Shown in pieces: positions 3,778-36,595 of a DNA stretch of 38,716 bases (its first letter is position 1; every line of letters starts with the position of its first letter). The translations under genes and the position numbers were made by a program. Location of the stretch: assembly GCA_001767195.1 (NCBI GenBank), contig MEKU01000011.1, positions 1 through 38,716 of the forward strand, read 5' to 3'. Under the pieces are notes generated by a model that ran no database searches, was not told the origin of the DNA, and worked only from the letters and a program-made list of their open reading frames with translations. The stretch is from Acidobacteria bacterium RIFCSPLOWO2_02_FULL_67_21 (GTDB lineage Bacteria; Acidobacteriota; Vicinamibacteria; Vicinamibacterales; UBA2999).

Positions 3778-5705
<1,928 letters not shown>

Positions 5706-20714: not shown

Positions 20715-20769
20715 TCGGGCCCGATTTCCCTCTGGACAGCCCGGCCTCGAGTCGGGTACCGTGTGCTCC

Positions 20770-21231
20770 GTGAAGAAGCTCTGTGCCGTCGTCGGCGCCC
20801 TGTTGGTGGCTGCCCTGGCGAGCGCATCCGTCGCCGGACAGACCAACGCCAAGCTGGTGGTCTACGGAGACCTCGTCTACTTCTTCGGGCCCGGCAAGCC
20901 GCTGAACTGCACGATGAGCAACCGGTTCAAGCGGGGCGAGCCCGTGGGGTTCCGCGCGGCCGCCGTCGATCCGGCCACGGGCAAGCGCGACCGCGCATCG
21001 CAGCTCGTCGTCCACCTGTCGTACGGTGGCAGGACCATGGACGTCCCCATGCGCGATCGGCAGACCGAGCAGCAGCCGGAGCGCGACTTCTGGGTGGCCA
21101 AGTGGGTCGTGCCCGACGATGCCCCGATGGGCGTTGTGAAGTACACGATCGCGGCCAGGGACCCGCAGGGGCGGACCGGCGAGTTCAAGCCATTCGACGT
21201 GCTCGCGTCGCAGATCACGATCGTCGAATAG
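20770..21231 (+). CDS. Secreted hypothetical protein
   Basis: GTG 20770 (or GTG 20761 three codons earlier) gives a clean signal peptide, KKLCAVVGALLVAALASASVAGQ, followed by a ~130-residue mature domain. Prominent stretches are LVVYGDLVYFFGPGKPLNCT, RFKRGEPVGFRAAAVDPATG, LVVHLSYGGRTMDVPMRDRQ and AKWVVPDDAPMGVVKYTIAA. The last, with its closing PFDVLASQITIVE strand, looks like an Ig-like or Big-type beta sandwich. I know no function for this family. It lies ten bases before a lipoprotein gene that uses similar beta-sandwich language, so the two are probably co-expressed and act together in the periplasm. Confidence 0.75.
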   Translation: MKKLCAVVGALLVAALASASVAGQTNAKLVVYGDLVYFFGPGKPLNCTMSNRFKRGEPVGFRAAAVDPATGKRDRASQLVVHLSYGGRTMDVPMRDRQTEQQPERDFWVAKWVVPDDAPMGVVKYTIAARDPQGRTGEFKPFDVLASQITIVE

Positions 21232-21241
21232 CGGGACCGCG

Positions 21242-22729
21242 ATGCGGTGGGCCGGGTTCGGGACTCTCGTCGCGCTCGCCACGGCTGTCGCCTGCTCGTC
21301 CACCGGCGCGTCACCTTCTGAGGAAACCGGCGACTCCCCGGCCGCGTCCTCCGGCGCACCACCCGTCCAGACCCTGACGCTCACATACGACAGGCCGATC
21401 GTCGGCGCCGCGGTTCGCGCGACCACCGCCGGCCTGCCCGCGGGCAAGACCGTAGAGCTCCTGTGGGCCACCGTGAGCGGCGGCTGGGTGATCGAGGACT
21501 CGTACCACTTCCGGGGCAAGAAGTACGTCGACTCGAGCATGCCGCTCGGCCAGTTCGCCGTCGATGCGACGGGCCGGCTGGACGCCCGCTTCACGATTCC
21601 TGAAGACTACGGCGGCATGCATGACGTCGTGGCGCGGATCGACGGCGTGCCCGTCGCCCAGAACGGCGTCGAGGTCACACAGACCTTCGAGATGACCCCC
21701 TCGTCGGGGCCGATCGGCACGCCGATCGAGCTCCGCGTCACCGGGCTGGGGTGGCGGACGATGGAAAGCACCTGGGTGGTGAACTGGGACAACAACCTTG
21801 TGGGCTTTGTCTCCGCGGCCGGCACCGGCGGGTCCGCGGTCGCACGGTTTCGCGCAGCCGGACCGGCCGGCTCCCATGTCGTGAAGGTGCTGACCGGCTA
21901 TCAGGGGCAGGGGTACCTCAACTACGAGCAGTCGCCGGTCGCGCACCTGCCGCGCCCGCAGTTCACGTTCGAAACGACGCCCGGCCAGGCCGCGATGCCG
22001 CCAGTGTACGCCGAACCGTACCCGCGTCAGCCCGTCCCGGATACCGAGATTGCGGTGAGTGGTGCACAGCTGTCGCTCAGTCCGACCCAGGGGGCAGTCG
22101 GGACGCGGGCCGCGCTCCGCGCCGAGGGGCTTCCCGCGGGCGCGACACTGCAGCTCGTGTGGCAGACCTACGTCGGCAACCGCGTGAGCGGCGACGGCTT
22201 CGAGCCGCAGGACCAGCCGATCGGCCCCGTCACGGTCGGGCGTGATGGCCGCATCGACGCGCCGGTGGCCATTCCCGACGACCTGGGCGGACTCCACGGG
22301 ATCGCGCTTCGCGACGGGACGCGTACGCTCGGGCGCGCCTTCTTCGTCATCGAGACCAGCATCGTCTCGATGTCGCCGCTTTCGGGGCCGGTCGGGACGC
22401 CCGTCACCATCCACCTGAAGGGCGTCGGGTGGACGGAGTACGACAACATCTACATCGCCACGTACGACAATGCGTACATGGGCTACGCGTGCGGTTTCAA
22501 CAGCCAGGGCGATGTCGTCATCAACTTCACCGCCACCGGCACTCCGGGCCCGCACATCATCGATCTCTATCCGGGCATCTACCAGGGGCCTCCGTCCGAG
22601 TCGCAGCTGCTCTATCGGCAGCCGCAGCTCACCTACGCCGACGATCATCCGGGCAACCGGATTCCCGCCCTCCGCTTCATCTTCGAAGTCACGCCGGCAC
22701 TCACGAGCCGGTTCATAACCGACCACTGA
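21242..22729 (+). CDS. Lipoprotein made of two tandem-duplicated beta-sandwich halves
   Basis: ATG 21242 gives a lipoprotein signal with the lipobox TAVAC (Cys18). The mature 477 residues are an internal duplication. Half 1 (about 45-255) and half 2 (about 275-485) share the series GLPAGxTxxLxW, DGRID/ATGRLDA, IPxDxGGxHxxxxRDG, then SGPxGTPxxxxxxGxGWxxxxxxxxxxxDN and FxxTGTPGPH/FRAAGPAGSH. Both end in an F-xFE-TP segment. The SGPxGTPxxxxxxG motif resembles IPT/TIG-type Ig folds. No enzyme signature is visible; it is probably an envelope-anchored binding or scaffold protein. The stop lies inside the arm of a long hairpin that reaches into the next gene's leader. Confidence 0.8.
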   Translation: MRWAGFGTLVALATAVACSSTGASPSEETGDSPAASSGAPPVQTLTLTYDRPIVGAAVRATTAGLPAGKTVELLWATVSGGWVIEDSYHFRGKKYVDSSMPLGQFAVDATGRLDARFTIPEDYGGMHDVVARIDGVPVAQNGVEVTQTFEMTPSSGPIGTPIELRVTGLGWRTMESTWVVNWDNNLVGFVSAAGTGGSAVARFRAAGPAGSHVVKVLTGYQGQGYLNYEQSPVAHLPRPQFTFETTPGQAAMPPVYAEPYPRQPVPDTEIAVSGAQLSLSPTQGAVGTRAALRAEGLPAGATLQLVWQTYVGNRVSGDGFEPQDQPIGPVTVGRDGRIDAPVAIPDDLGGLHGIALRDGTRTLGRAFFVIETSIVSMSPLSGPVGTPVTIHLKGVGWTEYDNIYIATYDNAYMGYACGFNSQGDVVINFTATGTPGPHIIDLYPGIYQGPPSESQLLYRQPQLTYADDHPGNRIPALRFIFEVTPALTSRFITDH

Positions 22730-22789
22730 TTCGTACGTAGTGCCGGGCTTCAGCCCGGCTAAAGCCGGGCACTACGGTCGGTTATGAAC
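22711..22789. repeat. Long nested hairpin: 13-bp inverted repeat enclosing a 41-base dispersed palindrome
   Basis: GTTCATAACCGAC (22711-22723) and its exact complement GTCGGTTATGAAC (22777-22789) enclose a 41-base element (22736-22776) that begins CGTAGTGCCGGGCTT and ends AAGCCGGGCACTACG, itself palindromic. The left arm encodes the last residues of the lipoprotein. The whole can fold into a stem between that gene and the TonB receptor. There is no T-tract, so it is not a standard terminator. Related elements occur at 27246, 27651, 30339, 31668, 31703 and 36555. Confidence 0.85.
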
Positions 22790-22846
22790 GCCCGGCGCAA
22801 CTGGTTGACACTCCGCAGACTCCCCGGCCATCATCCAGAATCCGCT

Positions 22847-25800
22847 ATGCAGCAGCTTCCTCGTGTCTTTCGTCGCGTTTCTGTGCTCGTTCTGCTCCTT
22901 GCCGTCCTGGGTGCGCCGGCCGCGCACGGCCAGACGGCGGCCATTGTCACCGGGACCGTGAGCGATGCGTCGGGCGGCGTCCTGCCGGGCGTGCAGCTGA
23001 CGCTGCGCCACACGGCAACGGGCCTCACCCGCGCGACGGCCACAGGACCGGATGGACGCTTCGCCTTTGCCGGCCTGCCGGCCGGCGATTACGAGCTCGC
23101 CGCGGATCTGTCGGGATTCCGCGCGCTCCGGCGCGACCTGGTCGCCACGGTCGGTGAAATCGTGTCGCTGCCGCTCGTCATGGAGGTCGGCGTCGAACAG
23201 GCGATCACGGTCAGCGGCGACATGCCGCTCGTGAACACCGCGACCTCCGAGCTGAGCTTCCTCGTGGGCCAGCAGGCGATCGAGTCGCTGCCGCTCAACG
23301 GCCGCAACTTCACGGACCTGACGCTGCTGCAGCCCGGCGTGCTGCCGTACCCGTCGCGCGACGGCGGGTCGGTCGTGGCGCACGGGCTCGGCATGAGCAT
23401 CAACGGGCAGGACTACCGGTCGAACGTCTACCTGCTCGACGGCACGCTGCTCAACGACTTCACCAATGGACCGGCCGGAAGCGCCGCGGGCACTGCGCTC
23501 GGGATGGAGTCGGTCCGCGAGTTCCGCGTCGAGTCGAACGGCTACAGCGCCGAGTTCGGCCGCAACTTCGGCGGACAGATCAACGTCCTCACCAAGTCGG
23601 GCGCCAACACGGTTCGGGGAAGCGCGTACGAGTTCCATCGCAATGACGCGCTCGATGCGCGCAACTACTTCGACGTCGGCGCCAAGCCCGACTTCGTGCG
23701 CAATCAGTACGGCGGGTCGCTCGGCGGGCCGATCCGGCGCGACCGGTTGTTCTACTTCGTCTCCTACGAAGGGCTGCGCGAGACGCTCGGCAAGACGATC
23801 ACCAGCTTTGTGCCCGACGACAACGCCAGGCGCGGCCTCCTTCCCGACGGCCCCGTCACGATCAGCCCCGCCGTGCAGCCGTATCTGGACGCCATTCCCG
23901 CCGCCAACGGCCCGGCGCTCGGGAGCGGGCTGGCGCCGCACACCTTCGGCTTCGACCAGGAATTGAACCAGGACTTCGCCCAGGGACGCCTCGACTATCA
24001 GGCCGGCGCCGAGCACCGGGTCTTCGGCCGCTACACGTACGACGACGCCAGCCACCGGCTGCCGACCGATTACCCGCAGTTCCCGCGGTCGTTCATCTCC
24101 AGCAACCAGTTCTTCACTGCGGAATACCAGCACGTGCTGTCCGATCGGACCCTCCAGACCCTCCGGTTCGGCTACAGCCGGACACGGATCGGACAGAACG
24201 TGGAGGCGAACCTGTCACGCGGGCTGCCGCCCTTCGTGGCGGGCCGGGCGATTGTCGGCGACATCGACATCGGCGGCATGCAGCGGTTCGGCCCACAGGT
24301 ATCGGCGAACGTCCGACTCGCCCAGAACGTCTACAGCACGCAGTACGACCTGACGCACACGCGCGGGCGGCACCTCATCAAAGCTGGCGTGCTGGCGGAG
24401 CGCTACCGCGACTTCATGACCAACCCGACGTTCAGCCTCGGGATCTATGCGTTCGCGAACGTCAGGACCTTCCTGCAGAACCAGCCGCTCCGGTTCGTCG
24501 GCCTCGGCCCCCAGGGCGACATCGATCGCGACTGGCCCTGGACGCTCTACGGGCTGTACGTGCAGGACCACGTGCAGGTGGCGCCCCGGCTGACGCTCAA
24601 CGCCGGGCTGCGGTACGAGTTCACGACGATGCCGATCGACCAGGGCGGGCGCGACTCGGCGCTCGTAAGCCTCAGCGACACGGCGCCGACCGTCGGGCGG
24701 CTGTTCGACGGTCCGTCGCGGACGAACCTCTCGCCCCGGATGGGCCTGGCCTGGGACGTCTTCGGCGACGGCTCGACGTCGGTGCGCAGCGGCTACGGGC
24801 TGTACTTCAACACCGCCAACCAGCAGAACCTGATCGTGACGGTGACGAACCCCCCGGCCACGCCGCGCTTCGTGATCCCGGGCGCGACGTTCCCGAACCC
24901 GCCGTTCGAGCGTGGCATCGGCAACACGATCCGGCCGATGGACTGGAACATCCGGGATCCGCGGCTGCACTCCTGGAACGTGAACGTGCAGCGGACGCTG
25001 CCAGCCAGCATCATCGCCACGATCGGCTACGCCGGCTCGCGCGGGACTCACCTGTTCCGCAACACGGACATCAACATCCCCACGCCGTCGGCCGGCCCGG
25101 ACGGCCGGCCGTTCTTCGCCGCCGGCCTGCCGCGGCCCAACCGCAGCTTCGGCACCATCGAGCTCAAGAGCAGCGACGGCGAGTCGTGGTATCGCGCGCT
25201 CATCGTCGAGCTGCGGCGCGCATGGACCAACGGCCTGTCGCTGCAGTCCTCCTACACCTGGTCGCGCAGCGAAGACACGACGCAGGCGTCGACCTTCTTC
25301 TCCGACTCGACGAATGGGACGACGGTGGCGTTCCCCGAGATCGATCCCGGCTACAACAAGGGGCCGTCGGACTGGGATACGCCCCACAACTGGGTGTTCA
25401 ACGCGGTGTGGGACGTCCCGGCGCCGGCCGGGCTGAGCGGCGTTCCGCGCGCGCTGCTGGCCGGCTGGCAGGTCACGGGCATCGGCACCGTGCGGAGCGG
25501 GCAGCCGCTGACCGTGTTCGTCCAGAACAACTGGTCGCGGTCGCAGTGGTCGCCGTCGATCTCGCCCACGAGCGGTCTCGACCGTCCCGACCTGGCGCCC
25601 GGGCGTTCGCCGGAGAGCGCGGTGATCGGCCAGCCTGATCAGTGGTTCGATCCGTCCGCGTTCGTCCTGCAGCCGCAGGGCACCCTCGGCAACAGCCCGC
25701 GCGGCGCGTTTCGAGGCCCCGATCTGCGCACCGTCGACCTGTCGGCGGTGAAGCGGATTCCGCTGCGCGGCGGGGCCCGGCTGGACGTGCGGCTGGAGGT

Positions 25801-25957
25801 CTTCAACATCTTCAACCGCGCCAACTTCGGCAATCCGACGCTCATCGCCTTTGCGGGCTCTGGGGCCGGGGACGCGCCGCTGTCGACGTTCGGCCGGACC
25901 CGCTCGACCGTGACGTCGGCGCGGCAGATGCAGCTCGGGATGCGGCTCGTGTTCTGA
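22847..25957 (+). CDS. Oar-like TonB-dependent outer-membrane receptor
   Basis: ATG 22847 gives a signal peptide (RRVSVLVLLLAVLGAPAAHGQ); an in-frame ATG at 22784 lies inside the hairpin and precedes the signal, so I reject it. The mature protein begins with a carboxypeptidase-regulatory domain (IVTGTVSDASGGVLPGVQLT and DGRFAFAGLPAGDYEL), then a plug (SLPLNGRNFTDLTLLQPGV, EFRVESNGYSAEFGRNFGGQ) and a large beta-barrel ending in an aromatic residue (GMRLVF). This arrangement is the Oar/SusC-like type expanded in Acidobacteriota and imports large or complex substrates by TonB energy. Length (1,036 residues) is typical. The symporter gene follows after 25 bases, suggesting coupled uptake across both membranes. 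Ligand unknown. Confidence 0.93.
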   Translation: MQQLPRVFRRVSVLVLLLAVLGAPAAHGQTAAIVTGTVSDASGGVLPGVQLTLRHTATGLTRATATGPDGRFAFAGLPAGDYELAADLSGFRALRRDLVATVGEIVSLPLVMEVGVEQAITVSGDMPLVNTATSELSFLVGQQAIESLPLNGRNFTDLTLLQPGVLPYPSRDGGSVVAHGLGMSINGQDYRSNVYLLDGTLLNDFTNGPAGSAAGTALGMESVREFRVESNGYSAEFGRNFGGQINVLTKSGANTVRGSAYEFHRNDALDARNYFDVGAKPDFVRNQYGGSLGGPIRRDRLFYFVSYEGLRETLGKTITSFVPDDNARRGLLPDGPVTISPAVQPYLDAIPAANGPALGSGLAPHTFGFDQELNQDFAQGRLDYQAGAEHRVFGRYTYDDASHRLPTDYPQFPRSFISSNQFFTAEYQHVLSDRTLQTLRFGYSRTRIGQNVEANLSRGLPPFVAGRAIVGDIDIGGMQRFGPQVSANVRLAQNVYSTQYDLTHTRGRHLIKAGVLAERYRDFMTNPTFSLGIYAFANVRTFLQNQPLRFVGLGPQGDIDRDWPWTLYGLYVQDHVQVAPRLTLNAGLRYEFTTMPIDQGGRDSALVSLSDTAPTVGRLFDGPSRTNLSPRMGLAWDVFGDGSTSVRSGYGLYFNTANQQNLIVTVTNPPATPRFVIPGATFPNPPFERGIGNTIRPMDWNIRDPRLHSWNVNVQRTLPASIIATIGYAGSRGTHLFRNTDINIPTPSAGPDGRPFFAAGLPRPNRSFGTIELKSSDGESWYRALIVELRRAWTNGLSLQSSYTWSRSEDTTQASTFFSDSTNGTTVAFPEIDPGYNKGPSDWDTPHNWVFNAVWDVPAPAGLSGVPRALLAGWQVTGIGTVRSGQPLTVFVQNNWSRSQWSPSISPTSGLDRPDLAPGRSPESAVIGQPDQWFDPSAFVLQPQGTLGNSPRGAFRGPDLRTVDLSAVKRIPLRGGARLDVRLEVFNIFNRANFGNPTLIAFAGSGAGDAPLSTFGRTRSTVTSARQMQLGMRLVF

Positions 25958-25982
25958 GCGAACGTGGGGCGGGTCGCTCCCT

Positions 25983-27251
25983 ATGAAGCTTCACAACAAG
26001 CTCGCGATCGCCCTCCTCCTCGGCATTGCGCTCGGCGCGATGCTCCACCCGTATGCCGGGGCGCCGTGGCTCGCGGCGATCAGCACGCACGTGCTGCGGC
26101 CGATCGGGCAGATCTTTCTGCGCACGATCTTCATGATCGTGGTCCCCATGGTCTTTTCGGCGCTCGTCGTCGGCGTCTATCAGCTCGGGCGGGGGCACGA
26201 TCTGCCGGGCGTGGCCGGCCGGACGCTGGCGTTCACGCTCCTGCTGAGCAGCACGTCGGTCGCCATCGGCATGATCCTCGTCAACGTGCTCCAGCCCGGG
26301 GCCGGCCTGCAGCTTTCCGCCGGCGACGCGGCATCGGGCGTAGACGTCCTCCGCGCGAACGCCGCGGCCGCTCAGCCGCTGAGCGACATCCTGATTCAGC
26401 TCATCCCACGCAACCCGCTCGAATCGGCGGTGCGGGCCCTCGACGGCGAAATGCTGCCGCTGATGGTGTTTGCCGTGATCTTCGGCGTGGCGGTGAGTCA
26501 GATTGCAGGGGGACAGGGGGCAAGGGGGCAAGGGGGCGAAGACCCGGTGCTCGTGCGGGTGCTCGAACAGATCTTCGACGCCTGTATGTGGATCGTCCAC
26601 CTCGCGATGCGGCTGGCGCCTGTCGCCGTGTTCGCCATCGTGTTCAACACGGCGTTCACGTTCGGGACCGGCGTCTTCGCGACGCTCCTCTTCTATGTCG
26701 TCACAGTGGTGGCCGGCCTGCTCATCCAGCAATTCGGCGTCTACGCGGCGCTGCTGTGGACTGCGGCGCGCCGGCCGCCGCTGGAGTTCTTCCGCAACTG
26801 CCGCGAGGTGTACCTCTACGCCTTCTCCACCGCCTCGTCCAACGCCACGCTTCCGCTGTCGCTCGATGTCGCCGAGCGGAAGCTGCGCCTGCCGCCGCAG
26901 ATCTCGCGCTTCGTGCTGACGGTCGGCTCGACCGCCAATCAGAACGGCACGGCGCTCTTCGAAGGCGTGACCGTCCTCTTCCTCGCACAGGTCTACGGGC
27001 TGGACCTCACCCTGGCGCAGCAGATCCGCGTGATGGTGATGTCGATTGTGGCCGGGATCGGAACGGCGGGGGTGCCGGGCGGCTCGCTGCCGATGGTGAT
27101 GATCGTCGCCCAGTCGGTCGGCGTTCCCGCCGAAGGCATGGCGCTCATCCTCGGCGTCGACCGCTTTCTGGACATGTGCCGGACGGCGGTGAACGTCAGC
27201 GGCGATCTGGTGATTGCGGCGCTCGTCAGCGCCCGGCCAGGGCGTGCGTAG
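25983..27251 (+). CDS. Dicarboxylate/amino acid:cation symporter (DAACS/SDF family)
   Basis: The 422-residue inner-membrane protein imports C4-dicarboxylates or acidic amino acids with cations. Family hallmarks are FLRTIFMIVVPMVFSALVVG, the Ser-rich re-entrant loop YAFSTASSNATLPLSL, the cation-site segment GSTANQNGTALFEGVTVLF, GIGTAGVPGGSLPM and the substrate-binding helix LGVDRFLDMCRTAVNVSGD. About eight membrane spans are visible. A Gly/Gln-rich insertion (GGQGARGQGGED) in a loop around residues 176-187 is encoded by four runs of five G and looks like a tandem-repeat expansion. The stop TAG (27249-27251) is part of a repeated CGTAGTGCCGGG unit. Substrate specificity cannot be read directly. 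Confidence 0.93.
   Translation: MKLHNKLAIALLLGIALGAMLHPYAGAPWLAAISTHVLRPIGQIFLRTIFMIVVPMVFSALVVGVYQLGRGHDLPGVAGRTLAFTLLLSSTSVAIGMILVNVLQPGAGLQLSAGDAASGVDVLRANAAAAQPLSDILIQLIPRNPLESAVRALDGEMLPLMVFAVIFGVAVSQIAGGQGARGQGGEDPVLVRVLEQIFDACMWIVHLAMRLAPVAVFAIVFNTAFTFGTGVFATLLFYVVTVVAGLLIQQFGVYAALLWTAARRPPLEFFRNCREVYLYAFSTASSNATLPLSLDVAERKLRLPPQISRFVLTVGSTANQNGTALFEGVTVLFLAQVYGLDLTLAQQIRVMVMSIVAGIGTAGVPGGSLPMVMIVAQSVGVPAEGMALILGVDRFLDMCRTAVNVSGDLVIAALVSARPGRA
26508..26536 (+). repeat. G-quadruplex motif (four G5 tracts) inside the symporter gene
   Basis: Four runs of five G (26508-26512, 26516-26520, 26524-26528, 26532-26536) are separated by the three-base loops ACA, CAA and CAA. The last units form a near-perfect eight-base tandem repeat GGGGGCAA. 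It is in frame and encodes a Gly/Gln/Arg loop. Confidence 0.85.
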
Positions 27252-29563: not shown

Positions 29564-30454
29564 TCAGGAGCAGCGGCTCCCCGTCCGCTCGCCGCGAACC
29601 CAGCCGGCGAGCATCTGCCACTCGGGATCGCTGCGGCTCTGCCACCGGCGCGGGCCGTTGTGCGTGTACGAGCCGCCGCCGTCGGGATGCAGCGGCTTCA
29701 GCAGAAAGCGGCTCTGCTCGGGGCTCCCCGGGATGACGAGCCGCGAGATGACCTGAAACGCCGCCTTCGCCTGCGCGTCGCTCCATCCCCCGCCGCCGGC
29801 AGGCACGGGCGCAAAGCCGGCCAGCCCGCTGTCATGACAGTTGCTGCACCGAATGTGGCCTTCCCGCGGGTTCGCGAAGATCGGCTGCACGCACGCGCGG
29901 AAGAACTCGAAATCGAGCGGCGGGCCCGGCTTCGCGACATAGCGATCGGCCGGGAAGCTGCGGATCCACGTCAGGATCTGCTGGTACTCGGGATTCTCCT
30001 TCGATGTCCAGTAGGTGCCACCGGTGTGACCGAGGCCGCCCGCCTGGGGGGACAGCGGCTTGAGCAGGAGGCGGCTGCTCTCCGGATCGGCCGTGTTGAT
30101 CACCTGCGTGACCACATCGAAGTTCCGGCGCGACTGCGCCGGCGTCCATCCCTGAGTCGTCTCCGGCGTCTCGAGGCTGAACCGGAGGCTCGTCTGCCAG
30201 GTATGGCACATCACGCATGCGGCATAGCCGGGCATCGAGCCGCCCCTCGGCCGCACGAACAGCAGCTCGATGTTCTTCCGGAAGGTCTCCAGATCCGCCG
30301 GACTCGGAAACGCTGCTACCTGTGCCGTTCCGGCCTGGGCCCGGCTGAAGCCGGGCACTACGGACGCCCGGGGCGCGCCCGATGCTGCCAGCGTCGATGC
30401 GGCCACCCAGCACAGTGCCAGCAGGAGCATGGCGCGGTATCGCATGGCGGTCAC
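29564..30454 (-). CDS. Periplasmic diheme c-type cytochrome-like protein
   Basis: The product has a signal peptide (MRYRAMLLLALCWVAAS region) and two heme-attachment motifs, CVMCH (Cys80, Cys83, His84) and CSNCH (Cys203, Cys206, His207). Each precedes a repeated module with the shape SRRNFDVVTQVIN...ESSRLLLKPLSP and AKAAFQVISRLVI...EQSRFLLKPLHP, so the protein is an internal duplication. GTG 30454 overlaps the upstream stop (GTGA); ATG 30445 is an alternative. Residues 31-39 (SVVPGFSRA) are encoded by a dispersed hairpin element inserted in frame between the signal peptide and the mature domain. Electron transfer for the neighbouring propeller proteins is a reasonable inference. Confidence 0.88.
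   Translation of the reverse strand: MTAMRYRAMLLLALCWVAASTLAASGAPRASVVPGFSRAQAGTAQVAAFPSPADLETFRKNIELLFVRPRGGSMPGYAACVMCHTWQTSLRFSLETPETTQGWTPAQSRRNFDVVTQVINTADPESSRLLLKPLSPQAGGLGHTGGTYWTSKENPEYQQILTWIRSFPADRYVAKPGPPLDFEFFRACVQPIFANPREGHIRCSNCHDSGLAGFAPVPAGGGGWSDAQAKAAFQVISRLVIPGSPEQSRFLLKPLHPDGGGSYTHNGPRRWQSRSDPEWQMLAGWVRGERTGSRCS
30339..30362. repeat. Dispersed hairpin element inside the diheme cytochrome gene
   Basis: GCCCGGCTGAAGCCGGGC followed by ACTACG, identical to the intergenic copies at 31668 and 31703. Its length of 24 bases (eight codons) keeps the frame. Confidence 0.9.
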
Positions 30455-31629
30455 CGGCTCGCCGGCATCGGCGGGTTGACGCGATCGATCGGGAGCACGG
30501 CGGTGCTGATCCGGGCAGGCCGCGCGCCGGTCTTGATCTTTGCGACGACGGCAAGCTTCTTCACGTCGATCGCCAGCGTGTAGTCAGCCCCTGACACGGC
30601 GACATACAAATACCGGCTGTCGGGAGTCGACGTAATCCAGTTCGCGCTCGGACCGACCTCCACCGAGCCGATGTACTTCAGGTCGGGCAGCGACCATGCG
30701 TACACGCGGCTGTCGAGGCGGCTCGAGGCCCACAGCGCCGACCGATCGGGCAGCACCTCGAGGCCGTGCATGTCCCCGGTCTGGATGCCGTCGGCATTCT
30801 GCCGCCAGAGCGGCAGCGGCGGCGGCCACAGCATGTCCACGACCGTGCGGGTGTTCCAGTCGATGACCCAGACGGCATTGATGCCGGTCGCCTGGGCGAA
30901 CATCCGCTTCGGCGAACCGTCCGGATTGGCCTCGAACGCCATCGGCCGCACCTCGTGGTTATCCTTGCCGTACTGCCGGTAGCCGGTCAGCTCCATTCCC
31001 CAGATCACCGTGTCCGTGACCGGATCGATGACCTGGATCGTCGGATCGCCCGGCTTGAGCTCGCCGAAGCTCAGGCCCGCGACCACGTAGTTGTCGTCGG
31101 GCGTCACGTAGGTGTTGTGCACCGGCCCCGCGACCGGAATGCTGCGAATCACCTTGTGCGTGCCGATGTCGATGACGTCAACGACCGAGGCCGCGCGCTC
31201 GATCTTCTGAAACCCGGCGCCCGCGGCGGCCGCCGACACCACCGAAATCGCCGCATAGATCTTCCTGTGCTTCTTGTTGACGACGATCTTGTTGGGGCGC
31301 TCCGACAGCGGGATGCGCATCACCTGCTGCAGGGTCTTCGTGTCGAAGACGTCGACGGTCTTGTCCTGTTCGTTGGCGCAGTAGTAGTAGAGCCCGTCGG
31401 GATGCACCGTGAGATTGTGCGCGTGGGGGCAGCCGCGGATCACTCCGACCACCTGCTGCACCGCCGGGTCGATGATGTGATGGACGTTGCCGGCGTTGTT
31501 GCTCTGGAGGATCCGGACGGCGACTCCGTCGTAGGTGTCGAGCCTCGGAACCTGCTGGGCCTCGGGCGGCGCCGCCAGCAGAAGCAGCCCGGCGATCGTC
31601 GTCAGCGCACGGCGCGTGGCACTCGGCAT
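30451..31629 (-). CDS. Secreted YVTN/cytochrome-cd1-type beta-propeller protein
   Basis: ATG 31629 has GGAGG five bases upstream and gives a signal peptide (RRALTTIAGLLLLAAPPEAQ). The mature ~365 residues are a seven-bladed propeller with YVTN-type blades: NLTVHPDGLYYYCANEQDKT, VDVFDTKTLQQVMRIPLSER, NKIVVNKKHRKIYAAISVVS, VHNTYVTPDDNYVVAGLSFG and NWITSTPDSRYLYVAVSGAD. No heme or metal motif is visible. It overlaps the diheme cytochrome gene by four bases, so the two products are probably made together and may form a periplasmic redox or binding unit. Confidence 0.88.
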   Translation of the reverse strand: MPSATRRALTTIAGLLLLAAPPEAQQVPRLDTYDGVAVRILQSNNAGNVHHIIDPAVQQVVGVIRGCPHAHNLTVHPDGLYYYCANEQDKTVDVFDTKTLQQVMRIPLSERPNKIVVNKKHRKIYAAISVVSAAAAGAGFQKIERAASVVDVIDIGTHKVIRSIPVAGPVHNTYVTPDDNYVVAGLSFGELKPGDPTIQVIDPVTDTVIWGMELTGYRQYGKDNHEVRPMAFEANPDGSPKRMFAQATGINAVWVIDWNTRTVVDMLWPPPLPLWRQNADGIQTGDMHGLEVLPDRSALWASSRLDSRVYAWSLPDLKYIGSVEVGPSANWITSTPDSRYLYVAVSGADYTLAIDVKKLAVVAKIKTGARPARISTAVLPIDRVNPPMPASR

Positions 31630-31667
31630 GTCAACCTCCGTGACGCCTGAGCCTACCACGGGGCGTG

Positions 31668-31726
31668 GCCCGGCTGAAGCCGGGCACTACGTACGATCCG
31701 CGGCCCGGCTGAAGCCGGGCACTACG
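31668..31726. repeat. Two identical dispersed hairpin elements
   Basis: GCCCGGCTGAAGCCGGGC + ACTACG occurs at 31668-31691 and 31703-31726, 35 bases apart and in the same orientation. They sit in the 169-base gap between the YVTN propeller gene and the cytochrome-propeller gene upstream of it. Confidence 0.9.
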
Positions 31727-31798
31727 TACGAACTGGTTGCGGGAAGGTGGCCGGCGCAGGAGCCCCCGCTGGGAGGGACTCCTGCGCCGGAAGACGTG

Positions 31799-33478
31799 CT
31801 ACCGCTGCGCGGTCATCGGGGACCGCTGCTCGCGGATGTATAAGTAGCCGACCTTGAATTCGGGCTGGACGCCGTACCACATGCGGCCCTGCGCATCCAC
31901 CCACATGTCCCGCGTGCCGCGGCTGATGTAGGGGCTCGGATACGCCACGACCTTGCCCGACGGGTCGATCCGGTAGGTCGCCTCGTTGAAGTGCGAGACG
32001 CCCCAGATGTTGTCCTTCGCATCCACGCCAAGGCCGTAGATCGTCGGGTAGGGTCCGGGCAGCTTGTAGACGGTGAACTTCTCCGTCTTCGGCTCGAACT
32101 TGGCAATCGAGGCGTTGAAGTACTGCGCGAACCAGATATTCCCCTTGGAGTCGACCTTCAGACGCCGCGGCCGGCCGTTGTGGATGTCGGGCGGCGGGGT
32201 GTACTTGGTCACCTTGTCCGTCTTCGGGTCGACTTTGCCGATGCTGCCGGTCTCAGCGGCGTTGAATTCAGCAAACCAGACGTTGCCCGCCTGGTCGACA
32301 GCGATGCCGTAGAGGTCGGGCACTTCGGGGAATGCCTTCCACTCCTTCGTCTTCGGGTTGAACTTCACGAGCGGACGGCCCGACGCCCAGATGTTCCCCT
32401 CGTGATCCACCACCGCGGTGTGCTTCCGTCCGAGCACGCCCTCACCCGGCTGCGGCTTCGGCTGGGCAAAGATCGGGGTGTTCGGATCGACCTGCTTGAC
32501 GCGCGGCGCCTTGTAGGGGTCGGCGTAGATCTCGAAGTCCTGCGTCCGCGAGTTGAAGCGGGCCAGCTTGTTCGCGCTGGTCACCGTCAGCCAGACGCTG
32601 CCGTCAGGCAACGGCAGCACTTCGTGGACGCCGCCGCCCTGGCCCGCCGGCATCTGCCACAGCGTGCTCTGGCCCGTCTTCGGATCGATGCGCGCGACGC
32701 CGTTTTCCATCTCCATCCAGACGTTGCCGGCCTTGTCGGGATAGCCGGTGCCCGGCCGGTTCGTCCCCTGGCCGACCGGGTAGTCGACGTAGACGATGTT
32801 CAGCGCATCGTCGCTCCACTGGATCTGAACGTCCTTCCAGGCCGGGAGCTCCTGCGGCGACTGCGGGGTCTTCGAATCGGGACCCAGCACGGCGGCCAGA
32901 TACTTTGCGACTTCGTCGGCCACCTGCGGGTTGACGGTCGTGATCCCGCGGCGCCGCATCCCGTCCATCGCGTCAATCCAGCCGTCGTAGTCGCGGCGGC
33001 CGGAAATCTGCCCCATGCCGTGGCAGTTCATGCAGCTCGTCATGAACCGCTCACGCCCTGGTGCTTCGGGCAACAGCACCGCCGCCTGCGCCTTGCTCAG
33101 CTCGTGCCACTGCACCGGCGCCGCGCGCATCGTGAAGGCCGCCTTGGCGGTCTGCCCCTGCTGCACCGCAACGTTCATTCTCGCCGGCGCGCCGCGGTAG
33201 CCGATCGACCAGGTCCAGACGTTGTAGCTGCCTGGCTCCAGGCCATCGACGATGAACTGGCCCTGGCTGTTCGACAGGACGCTCGTGGTCTTGTGCGTGC
33301 CCTCGCTCCCGCGCATCTCGTCCACGTTCGCGTTCGCGGTATGCTCGGCCCGCACGAAGACTGCGCGCAGCGGCTTGCCGTCAGGCCCGGTAATCGTGCC
33401 GGCGATCGAACCCTGAGCAGCGGCGGATCCGGCCGACAGCAGAACCGCCAGACCCGCTAAGAGTGCCAACCTCTTCAT
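31799..33478 (-). CDS. Periplasmic cytochrome c / virginiamycin-B-lyase-like propeller fusion
   Basis: The 559-residue protein has a signal peptide (MKRLALLAGLAVLLSAGSAAA), a carboxypeptidase-regulatory domain (SIAGTITGPDGKPLRAVFVR and DGLEPGSYNVW), one c-type heme motif CMNCH (Cys149, Cys152, His153) and a Vgb/SMP-30-like propeller. Its blades have the recurrent DxxGNxW signature (DKAGNVWME, DHEGNIWASG, DQAGNVWFAE, DSKGNIWFAQ, DAKDNIWG). True Vgb lyases lack the first two domains, so this is a large redox-linked variant seen in Acidobacteriota. The start ATG 33478 has GGAGGA five bases upstream and follows the TonB receptor by 15 bases, implying they act on the same imported compound. Confidence 0.92.
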   Translation of the reverse strand: MKRLALLAGLAVLLSAGSAAAQGSIAGTITGPDGKPLRAVFVRAEHTANANVDEMRGSEGTHKTTSVLSNSQGQFIVDGLEPGSYNVWTWSIGYRGAPARMNVAVQQGQTAKAAFTMRAAPVQWHELSKAQAAVLLPEAPGRERFMTSCMNCHGMGQISGRRDYDGWIDAMDGMRRRGITTVNPQVADEVAKYLAAVLGPDSKTPQSPQELPAWKDVQIQWSDDALNIVYVDYPVGQGTNRPGTGYPDKAGNVWMEMENGVARIDPKTGQSTLWQMPAGQGGGVHEVLPLPDGSVWLTVTSANKLARFNSRTQDFEIYADPYKAPRVKQVDPNTPIFAQPKPQPGEGVLGRKHTAVVDHEGNIWASGRPLVKFNPKTKEWKAFPEVPDLYGIAVDQAGNVWFAEFNAAETGSIGKVDPKTDKVTKYTPPPDIHNGRPRRLKVDSKGNIWFAQYFNASIAKFEPKTEKFTVYKLPGPYPTIYGLGVDAKDNIWGVSHFNEATYRIDPSGKVVAYPSPYISRGTRDMWVDAQGRMWYGVQPEFKVGYLYIREQRSPMTAQR

Positions 33479-33493
33479 AGTTCCTCCGTTTCG

Positions 33494-36400
33494 TCAGAAG
33501 CTAACCTGGGCCCCCACTCGTATCAGTCGCCCGGCAAGAATTTCCTGCGCGTTCAACCACGCCGGCCCGTATCGACTGTTCAACTGCTGGACCGAGTTCG
33601 CGTTGAACGCGTTATAGAGGTCTAAATTGCCTTCCACCCGGAACCGTCCGAGCTCGAAGATCCGCGTGAACCGGAGGTCCACCTGCTGTGACCGTTCCTC
33701 AAACATCGTCTGAGGCGGAATCAAGTTCAGGGTGACCGTCGCATTGCATACGGCAGCGCCCCGGCAGGACCCCATATTACGCCCGAGCGATGGCGCAATC
33801 TCGGCATTTCTTGCCACGTAGCTGGCCTGGACGGGCAGACCGGGAAGGTTCTGGTACACGGCGCTCGCCCGGAAATCCCATGGTAACGGATAGACCAGCA
33901 GGAACTTAACCTGCGTCTCGGCCGACCAGGGCGGCGTCACGCGGCAATGGTAGAGGTCCTGGCCGGAGTTGACCACATAGCAAGTATCGGTCACCGTCCG
34001 ACCGGTACTCACGCCACCCTGCAGCGTGACCCCCTGGCCCATCCGGGCGCGGACGTTGACATCGACGCCGTTGAAGACCTGAGACGGCTCGCCGAAATTG
34101 TCAGCCTGGGTGATCACATTCTCCACCCGCCCGAACACAGCGGGCCTGATGTCGTACAGGCCGCAGATCCGGCTGCCGCTGATGCCGCTCGGCAGCCGTG
34201 AATCGGTGGGGGCCGTGATGCAGTACTCGTCGTACTGCGATGGATCGACCGCCTGGTTCCTGGTGACCTGCTGGTTGCCGTACGACGTCCGGAAGTACCC
34301 GACATTGACGCCGAGCCCCGGACGCAGCTCGTGCTCGATCGCGATCGACCCTCGCCACAGAAACTCCTGCGCGTCCTGGAATCCGTTCAGGATTTCGTCG
34401 GCATACCGGGTGCCCCGTAGTCCGGTGAGCACCTGCCCGAAGTTCTGGTCCGACAGCGCGCCGCACTCGCCGTTCGCGCCGGGGATCGCGGGGCCGAGCT
34501 CGCAGTCGGGTATGTAGTTGCCGTTCGCGTCGTTCCAGGTGCGCGTGGCGCTGTTGGCCTGCTGCAGAATCGGCTGGTTGAGCGCGACGTTGTTGTTGCC
34601 CGTCGACGATGTCCCGAGGACGTACCGGCCGACCGACGCCTTCAGCGCCGTGCGGCCGTTGCCGAAGATGTCGTAGGCCACGCCAAGGCGCGGGTTCAGG
34701 TTCTTCCAGTCCGGCACGTTCGTGACTTCCGGGAAGTCCCGCGCGGGCACGAAGTAGCCGGCGGCAAACGACTGCGCGACCGCCGTGGCATTGAACGAGT
34801 CGTAGCGCAGGCCCATGTTCAGCGTGAGCTTGCGGATCGTCCACTGGTCCTGCACGAACGCCCCCACTGTGGTCGAGTCGCTTGCACGACCGAGCGGCGT
34901 GGCGTAGACCGTCACGGACAGCGGCACGCGATCGCGGAACGCGTACGACCGCGCGCCGTGGATCTGATCGATCGCACGCTGATTCTTGTTCCGGAACGTG
35001 TACCACTGGTAGGTGAATCCGGTCTTGAACGCGTGGGAACCGGTGATGTACGACGTGGCAAATCGCCAGTTGTACTGGTCGTTCACCGACTGCGTCGAAT
35101 AGCAGCACGGGTTGCCGATGTTGCCCGGCGTGATGCTGCCGGCGCGCGCGCCGTACGTGATGCCGAGCGCCTGATCGGTGATGGCGAAGTCGGTGATCTT
35201 CGTCGGTTCCGGGCGCTTCGAGTTGATCGTCGTCTTGTTGAGCGAGGTGCCGCCCTCGAAAAGGAGGCGGGCGGTCATCGGCCGGCTCCACGACGCGGTG
35301 ATTGCGGTGCTCGGGTTGTAATGGTGGTCGCCGTTGGCCTCCTGCGACGCCGTCGCGACCACCGAGTTCGGGCAGTTGCAATTGTCCTGCACGCTCCAGT
35401 ACGCCGCAATCTTGTCCTTGGCCGACGCCTGCCACGTCAACCGCAGCGAGGCATCCTTGAAGTAGTCGTTCGAGTACGCCGGCCGGCTCGCATCCGGCTC
35501 GTAGAACAGCGTGGTCGGCCGCCGCGGATCCGCCGGCAGCGGCGATACGCCGTGCAGCCGGTTGAAGAAGTTGCCGGCAAAGTACCGCGACGCCACCCAG
35601 TCGCGGACGCTCCCGAAGTACCACAGCGTGTCTTCCTTGATCGGCCCGCCGGCACCGCCGCCCCACTGATAGCTTTCGCGCAGCGACGGGGTCGACGTCA
35701 CGCCCCGGCGGCGGAGCGAGTCGCTCAGGTTGTCGCTCTGCAGATCCGGATTGCTGTAGCTGAAGCCGAAGTTGCCCGCAAAAACGTTGCCGCCTTCCTT
35801 CGGCACGATGTTCACGCGGACGCCGCCGCTGAACGTCTCCGCCGAGGTGCCCGCCAGCTCCACCGCGACCTCGCCGACCGAGAAGGGATTGAAGCTGTAC
35901 ACGGAGCTGTTCAGCATCGTGAGGTTCAAGCCTTCCTGGTTGACGTTGATCTCGTTGGTGCGGCCGCCGTGGACCGCGAAGGCGGCGCCCCGCTCGCCGG
36001 AGATGCCGCCGACATCCTGGCTGGCACCGCGCGCCGCAGGAATCATCGTGGCGTACGACCCGAGCCGCCGGGTCGTGGGCAGCGCATCCAGCGTCGCGGC
36101 CGAGAGCGTCGTCTGCTGCAGCGTGTTCCGCGTGTCGACGAGCGGCGCGGCGCCCGTGACGGTCAGCGTCTCTTCGAGCGCGCCGACCGGGAGGTCCGCA
36201 TTCACGGTGGCCGTGAAGCCGACGGTCAGCTCGAGCCCCTCGCGGCGGACCGAGCCGAAGCCAGGCAGGCTGAAGGTCACGGTGTACACGCCGGGGCGGA
36301 GATCGACGATCTGATATCGGCCCTGGCCGTCGGTGACTGCCGTCCGGACCTTCTCAATCAGGGGGGGCTCGCAGCCTCGACCGTGACGCCGGGCAGCACC

Positions 36401-36540
36401 GCGCCCGACGTGTCGCGCACGACACCTGCAATCGAACCCGCCGCCACGCCTTGTGCGGACGCGTTCGACGCCAGCACGCTCCACGCGGCCATGACCACGC
36501 AGCACGCCACCCTCGAACTGCTCGGCATACCCTGACCCAT
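33494..36540 (-). CDS. Oar-like TonB-dependent receptor, frameshifted at a C7 tract
   Basis: The N-terminus lies in one frame: ATG 36528 or 36540, signal peptide ACCVVMAAWSVLASNASAQG, then SIAGVVRDTSGAVLPGVTVE and ends EAASPP-stop. The rest lies in the next frame from LIEKVRTAVTDGQGRYQIVD to the terminal VGAQVSF, about 950 residues. The two join at seven C on the minus strand (36361-36367); eight C would restore one continuous protein. The receptor has the regulatory domain (DLRPGVYTVTFSLPGFGSV), a plug (FAVHGGRTNEINVNQEGLNL) and a barrel (LNMGLRYDSFNATA, LRFTRIFELGRFRVEGNLDL). It could be a real null, a slipped-strand switch or a sequencing error. It is the first gene before the cytochrome-propeller gene. 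Confidence 0.88.
36361..36367. repeat. Homopolymer G7/C7 tract at the receptor frameshift
   Basis: Seven G on the plus strand (seven C in the coding sense). One extra base joins the two receptor reading frames exactly. Confidence 0.85.
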
Positions 36541-36554
36541 TCCACATCTGCCAA

Positions 36555-36595
36555 CGTAGTGCCCGGCTTCAGCCGGGCTGAAGCCCGGCACTACG
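36555..36595. repeat. 41-base double form of the dispersed palindrome
   Basis: The element begins CGTAGTGCCCGGCTTCAGCC and ends GGCTGAAGCCCGGCACTACG, the same architecture as 22736-22776. It sits just upstream of the frameshifted receptor gene, between it and the pseudouridine synthase gene. Confidence 0.9.

Follow-up and report, generated by a model that had tools for sequence, protein, structure and literature searches.

We read this locus, with a probability of about 0.5, as two adjacent modules: an outer-membrane receptor with a heme-propeller fusion protein, and a conserved redox pair in which a seven-bladed propeller with a top-face pocket is partnered by a diheme cytochrome. We separate the two because the fusion and the receptor vary among relatives, and the pair alone is strongly conserved. 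The window, by which we mean the whole stretch of 38,716 nucleotides that was analysed, carries the four genes as open reading frames on its minus strand at 29564-36547, confirmed from the frame list and Pfam. The parts that the earlier note had named from the letters alone (a receptor, a three-domain fusion, a YVTN propeller and a duplicated diheme cytochrome) are all present, as judged by Pfam, CxxCH motifs and an internal repeat. The features are as follows.

33494-36547, minus strand: outer-membrane TonB-receptor-like barrel, OMP_b-brl_4 with CarboxypepD_reg (Pfam, 109.1 bits against a cut-off of 30, and 42.4 bits, respectively)
about 36361-36367, minus strand: C7 homopolymer, the receptor frame break (reading frames)
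31799-33478, minus strand: fusion of CarboxypepD_reg, c-type heme (C149MNCH153) and Vgb-type propeller, 559 aa (Pfam)
31751-31790, minus strand: perfect 17-bp hairpin, 8 nt past the fusion stop codon (fold of the gap)
31668-31725, minus strand: two REP-like repeats between fusion and propeller, at 31668-31690 and 31703-31725 (repeat search)
30451-31629, minus strand: YVTN/YNCE seven-bladed propeller, 392 aa from the likely start ATG at 31629 (PF21783, 32.5 bits against a gathering score of 27.1)
29564-30454, minus strand: two-repeat diheme c-type cytochrome, CVMCH at 80 and CSNCH at 203 (internal repeat, propeller neighbour)
30339-30361, minus strand: REP-like repeat, in frame within the N-terminal signal/linker region of the cytochrome (repeat search)
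36556-36578: further copy of the REP-like palindrome (repeat search)

Two of the reading frames call for comment. The YVTN frame as listed spans 30451-31659, and a GGAGG at 31639-31635 lies five bases before the ATG at 31629; ahead of this ATG several orthologues retain a 'TEV-x-M', the Shine-Dalgarno site in protein translation, and the gene likely starts at 31629. For the receptor, the listed ORF opens out of frame: its signal peptide and the initial half of CarboxypepD_reg are encoded in a different frame, which extends to about 36527 and joins the main frame at the C7 run. Since the receptors of two further loci in the same genome (L097 and L100) are likewise split across two overlapping frames, an assembly error at homopolymers is the likely cause, and a pseudogene is the less probable account. 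Pfam gives the receptor no TonB plug domain match, and the plug region of the sequence is present. A second receptor stands elsewhere in the window, on the plus strand at 22784-25957 (OMP_b-brl_4, 565 bits; region 20761-27251), with two proteins lacking a Pfam match upstream of it and an SDF dicarboxylate symporter downstream.

The propeller and cytochrome genes, which overlap by 4 nt, almost certainly encode one functional unit. When 99 genomes from its family and order were compared, 10 orthologues of the propeller came up, 67-76% identical to it, and each has a cytochrome partner at 63-72% beside it. Taking the close and wider groups together, a cytochrome homologue lies within 1.5 kb of 66 of the 67 propeller homologues (on the same strand in 63, with a median gap of 104 bp), and 74 of 75 cytochrome homologues adjoin a propeller. 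The wider propeller group stands at about 40-45% identity, and its monoheme partners match the second cytochrome repeat. At about 19 places the open frames matched by propeller and by cytochrome are equally long, suggesting fusion of the two; a single frame was verified directly at two places, L075 and L071. Scanning the contigs of 17 named loci, we found the pair in the same order and strand in 16, with the cytochrome clipped by the contig end in two; at the remaining locus, L096, the contig stops inside the propeller gene. The other neighbours of the pair vary and include PQQ dehydrogenases, NHL propellers and MBL-fold proteins. Across the phylum the propeller profile matches 16 of 247 genomes, mostly of the window's own order.

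Some surroundings of related genes were recorded along the way. Paralogous cytochrome-propeller pairs at L076:664-7643 and L071:3-6759 adjoin ankyrin-repeat genes, and the L076 cluster also has DUF1592/DUF1588/DUF1585 and DUF1552 genes, with a TonB-type receptor after the pair; a literature search found no publication treating both DUF1592 and DUF1552. On plasmid pMR68 of Pseudomonas sp. K-62, a propeller homologue and an annotated virginiamycin B lyase (L111:2493-3542 and 4463-5548) adjoin a mercury-resistance operon.

An AlphaFold model of the propeller (14 sequences; mean pLDDT 80, pTM 0.81) has seven four-stranded blades, the inner strands of which begin, by DSSP, at residues 73, 112, 170, 227, 290, 329 and 371. 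Across about 30 sequences one residue per blade is invariant wherever aligned (H71, N113, H171, R228, H288, W331 and R373), and in the model all seven sit at or close to the inner-strand starts; position 330 is N or D in most members. The loops that join the blades form the top face of a propeller, and it is there that NosZ and carotenoid dioxygenases hold a metal through inner-strand histidines (PMC8916777). From these blade positions in the model we infer that the top face has a pocket containing three His and two Arg, which may bind a ligand or a metal, or may be catalytic. Caution is in order on two counts, however: YVTN repeats often carry a histidine at this position of the blade, and the invariant His and Arg residues could bind a protein partner or some other ligand.

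The cytochrome is an internal duplication, its two halves sharing 35% identity (E 3e-25 in an internal repeat comparison). Each repeat has a CxxCH and a second invariant histidine (H100 and H222 in the numbering of the conservation analysis) within a 'GG..H.G'-like motif, and this second histidine suggests bis-His ligation, which on the sequence is probable for the hemes of this protein. No Pfam family scores above cut-off (of those for class I c-type cytochromes, PF00034 reaches 15.3 bits against 21.3, and PF13442 18.0 against 27), and a search of solved structures returned nothing below E 0.2. Because the model (pLDDT 70) gave a single match in the fold search, at Z 2.4, we name no structural family for it.

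Put together, these observations suggest how the locus might work. In its top-face pocket the seven-bladed propeller would hold either a ligand or a metal coordinated by the three His, and the diheme cytochrome, probably bis-His, would carry electrons between that pocket and the respiratory chain; the direction of this flow, the handling of a substrate by the pair and its placement in the periplasm are all parts of the proposal. The barrel receptor and the heme/Vgb-type fusion, as the other module, would probably handle an imported compound and need not serve the pair. The pair itself looks like a redox module of soil and aquatic Acidobacteriota, probably periplasmic, that has not been characterised before; a literature search combining YVTN, beta-propeller, cytochrome c and Acidobacteria found no publication. 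The significance of such a module is that Vicinamibacterales are abundant in soil and have a periplasmic metabolism that is mostly unassigned, and an obligate, often fused pair with a widely conserved pocket is a concrete and testable candidate for redox function.

Another way to view the propeller is as a non-catalytic scaffold or assembly partner, comparable to the hydrazine synthase beta subunit or to YncE-like binding propellers, with a pocket onto which the cytochrome or a ligand would dock. PDB sequence matches do include a surface-layer YVTN protein and the beta subunit of hydrazine synthase, and obligate pairing and fusion would suit a structural subunit. However, the seven residues H, N, H, R, H, W and R are kept at 32% identity in the pMR68 protein, which has no cytochrome in the plasmid stretch examined, and the invariance of the pocket in such a protein points to chemistry or a small ligand and not to docking of this cytochrome. 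We consider a scaffold role rather unlikely, while granting it some weight. The same plasmid protein also tells against the redox-pair reading, since without a cytochrome in the stretch examined it indicates that a propeller of this kind is able to exist alone.

A more specific version of the redox reading would make the pair a new metallo-oxidoreductase of the periplasm, found mostly in Vicinamibacterales, with a three-His top-face site in a YVTN propeller (to which two Arg, an Asn and a Trp would contribute) and a dedicated bis-His diheme cytochrome of a new family; we offer this as a tentative proposal that may well prove wrong.

Whether all four genes serve a single import-and-oxidise pathway, in which a compound taken up by the receptor is acted on by the heme-Vgb fusion and the propeller pair takes the electrons, bears on the layout of the locus and on its conservation, and on both grounds we judge such a pathway improbable. 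The genes share a strand, and the description of mostly tiny gaps or overlaps holds for the 15 bp between receptor and fusion, where a GGAGG site is found, and for the overlap of propeller and cytochrome. It fails for the 169 bp between fusion and propeller, counted from the ATG at 31629, which contain the hairpin and two of the REP-like repeats. The sequence 31660-31801 folds at -79.7 kcal/mol (z -5.85), and the hairpin at 31751-31790 lacks a T tract, so it may be where a transcript ends or is processed, and is not a proven terminator. A scan for sigma-70 promoters and terminators found sites no commoner than in shuffled sequence and was uninformative for this organism. Allowing up to 2 mismatches, the 4.19-Mb genome has 405 copies of the REP-like palindrome GTAGTGCCCGGCTTCAGCCGGGC and 0 of its reversed control. 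Because of this gap, with its hairpin and repeats, it is not evident that all four genes share one transcript; against the two-module reading, however, the modules adjoin on one strand here, and a joint transcript running through the gap is possible.

Of the 10 relatives in which the pair has an orthologue, one (genome G011, locus L061) has both a receptor and a fusion of the Vgb type upstream on the strand of the pair; the order there is receptor, small cytochrome, Vgb-type fusion, MBL-fold protein, propeller and diheme cytochrome. This ordered run speaks for a four-gene pathway, but its Vgb-type fusion is only about 23% identical to that of the window, and the arrangement is missing from the other nine orthologous loci. 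The earlier note had itself named a gene order unique to this genome as what would speak against its proposal, and, G011 excepted, that is largely what we found. What survives of the proposed periplasmic set is that its parts look exported (signal-like N-termini, CxxCH) and that two of them carry heme motifs; the single four-gene pathway is unsupported.

The receptor and the fusion have associations of their own. About 14 other members of the fusion family are found in the same genome, and among 98 relatives the best match of the fusion reaches 31-35% identity over part of its length, with no close orthologue in any of them, which argues further against a dedicated pathway. The receptor family is larger still, and the closest relatives of the receptor (59%) are two receptors on contig C17 of the same genome, adjoining another Vgb-type fusion; contigs C17 and C4 both carry receptor and fusion together. 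Receptor-fusion neighbours are enriched, with 7 pairs within 5 kb where 1.5-1.9 would be expected, a count that took in close receptor relatives only. The receptor and fusion of the window are thus one of several such associations, drawn from large families that have expanded in this genome.

Returning to the propeller, a copper enzyme of the NosZ or thiocyanate dehydrogenase type is very unlikely. In favour of such an enzyme are the three invariant His at the inner-strand starts and the fold matches, to NosZ at Z 34.0 (327 residues, rmsd 3.4) and to thiocyanate dehydrogenase at Z 29.7. However, many seven-bladed propellers score equally high (1l0q, Z 38.1), and the lactonase-type NosZ model of clade III (NF052460) gives 44.5 bits against a cut-off of 700, a score on which this candidate was rejected. 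His is found at 3 of the 7 inner-strand starts, by blade position and not structural superposition, where the CuZ site of nitrous oxide reductase has seven, and Pfam finds propeller families only in the 392 aa, with no CuA cupredoxin domain. A 2026 survey, moreover, did not find clade III nosZ in Acidobacteriota (PMC13122619). Foldseek also returns NirN, NirF, AztD and the quinohemoprotein amine dehydrogenase beta subunit; the fold matches span all kinds of seven-bladed propeller and do not settle the function. Quinohemoprotein amine dehydrogenase was rejected, the small cofactor-bearing third gene not being seen beside the pair, and TIGR03866, the beta-propeller of PQQ-dependent catabolism, gives 53.2 bits against 287.3.

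The reading of the fusion as a Vgb-like lyase of cyclic lactones or aromatic natural products is scarcely credible, because, although the Vgb_lyase profile (PF24684) scores 67.7 bits against a gathering cut-off of 50 and Vgb is the best PDB match of the family profile (E about 1e-46), the Vgb residues His228 and His270, which we take from published structures to be catalytic, align with Tyr481 (18 of 18 family members) and Arg523 (15 of 18), and the protein carries a heme motif besides. The lactone-type chemistry suggested in the earlier note is thus contradicted at the aligned catalytic positions. In the alignment, position 270 of Vgb is Ala in chain 2z2p; an inactive Vgb variant was used for the substrate complex (PMC8916777). 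Propellers of this fold are able to host other chemistry, as CylK, related to Vgb by fold, illustrates (PMC8916777). As for the heme, 18 of the 18 family members aligned keep the single CxxCH of the fusion (C149MNCH) and Met174 is almost invariant, a pattern that fits His/Met ligation. The comparisons made here thus correct two ideas, that the four genes form a dedicated pathway and that the chemistry is that of a lactone lyase.

Set beside known systems, the parts of the locus show both likeness and difference. The fusion's propeller is homologous to virginiamycin B lyase, but the fusion lacks the catalytic His and has added N-terminal CarboxypepD_reg and heme domains. Hydrazine synthase, in which a beta YVTN propeller stands with a diheme gamma subunit, likewise joins a propeller to a c-type heme subunit (profile match E 3.9e-9, fold Z 31.8); the window's propeller, however, scores 36.3 bits against the NCBIfam cut-off of 560 for the beta subunit (NF052340), no alpha subunit is seen, and the cytochrome is without a Pfam match above cut-off. 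Thiocyanate dehydrogenase with cytochrome c552 is an oxidoreductase of the periplasm that is built on a seven-bladed propeller and works with a cytochrome c (PMC9456337), but that cytochrome has a single heme, whereas the one here has two hemes and an internal repeat. Nitrous oxide reductase, including the lactonase-type clade III, shares the propeller fold and holds its top-face metal by inner-strand His, and differs in the profile score, the number of inner His and the CuA domain noted above. The YncE and YVTN lactonase-like propellers (PF21783, TIGR02276) have family profiles that the window's propeller matches above cut-off, and it is set apart from them by its conserved pocket, with one residue per blade, and its obligate cytochrome partner.
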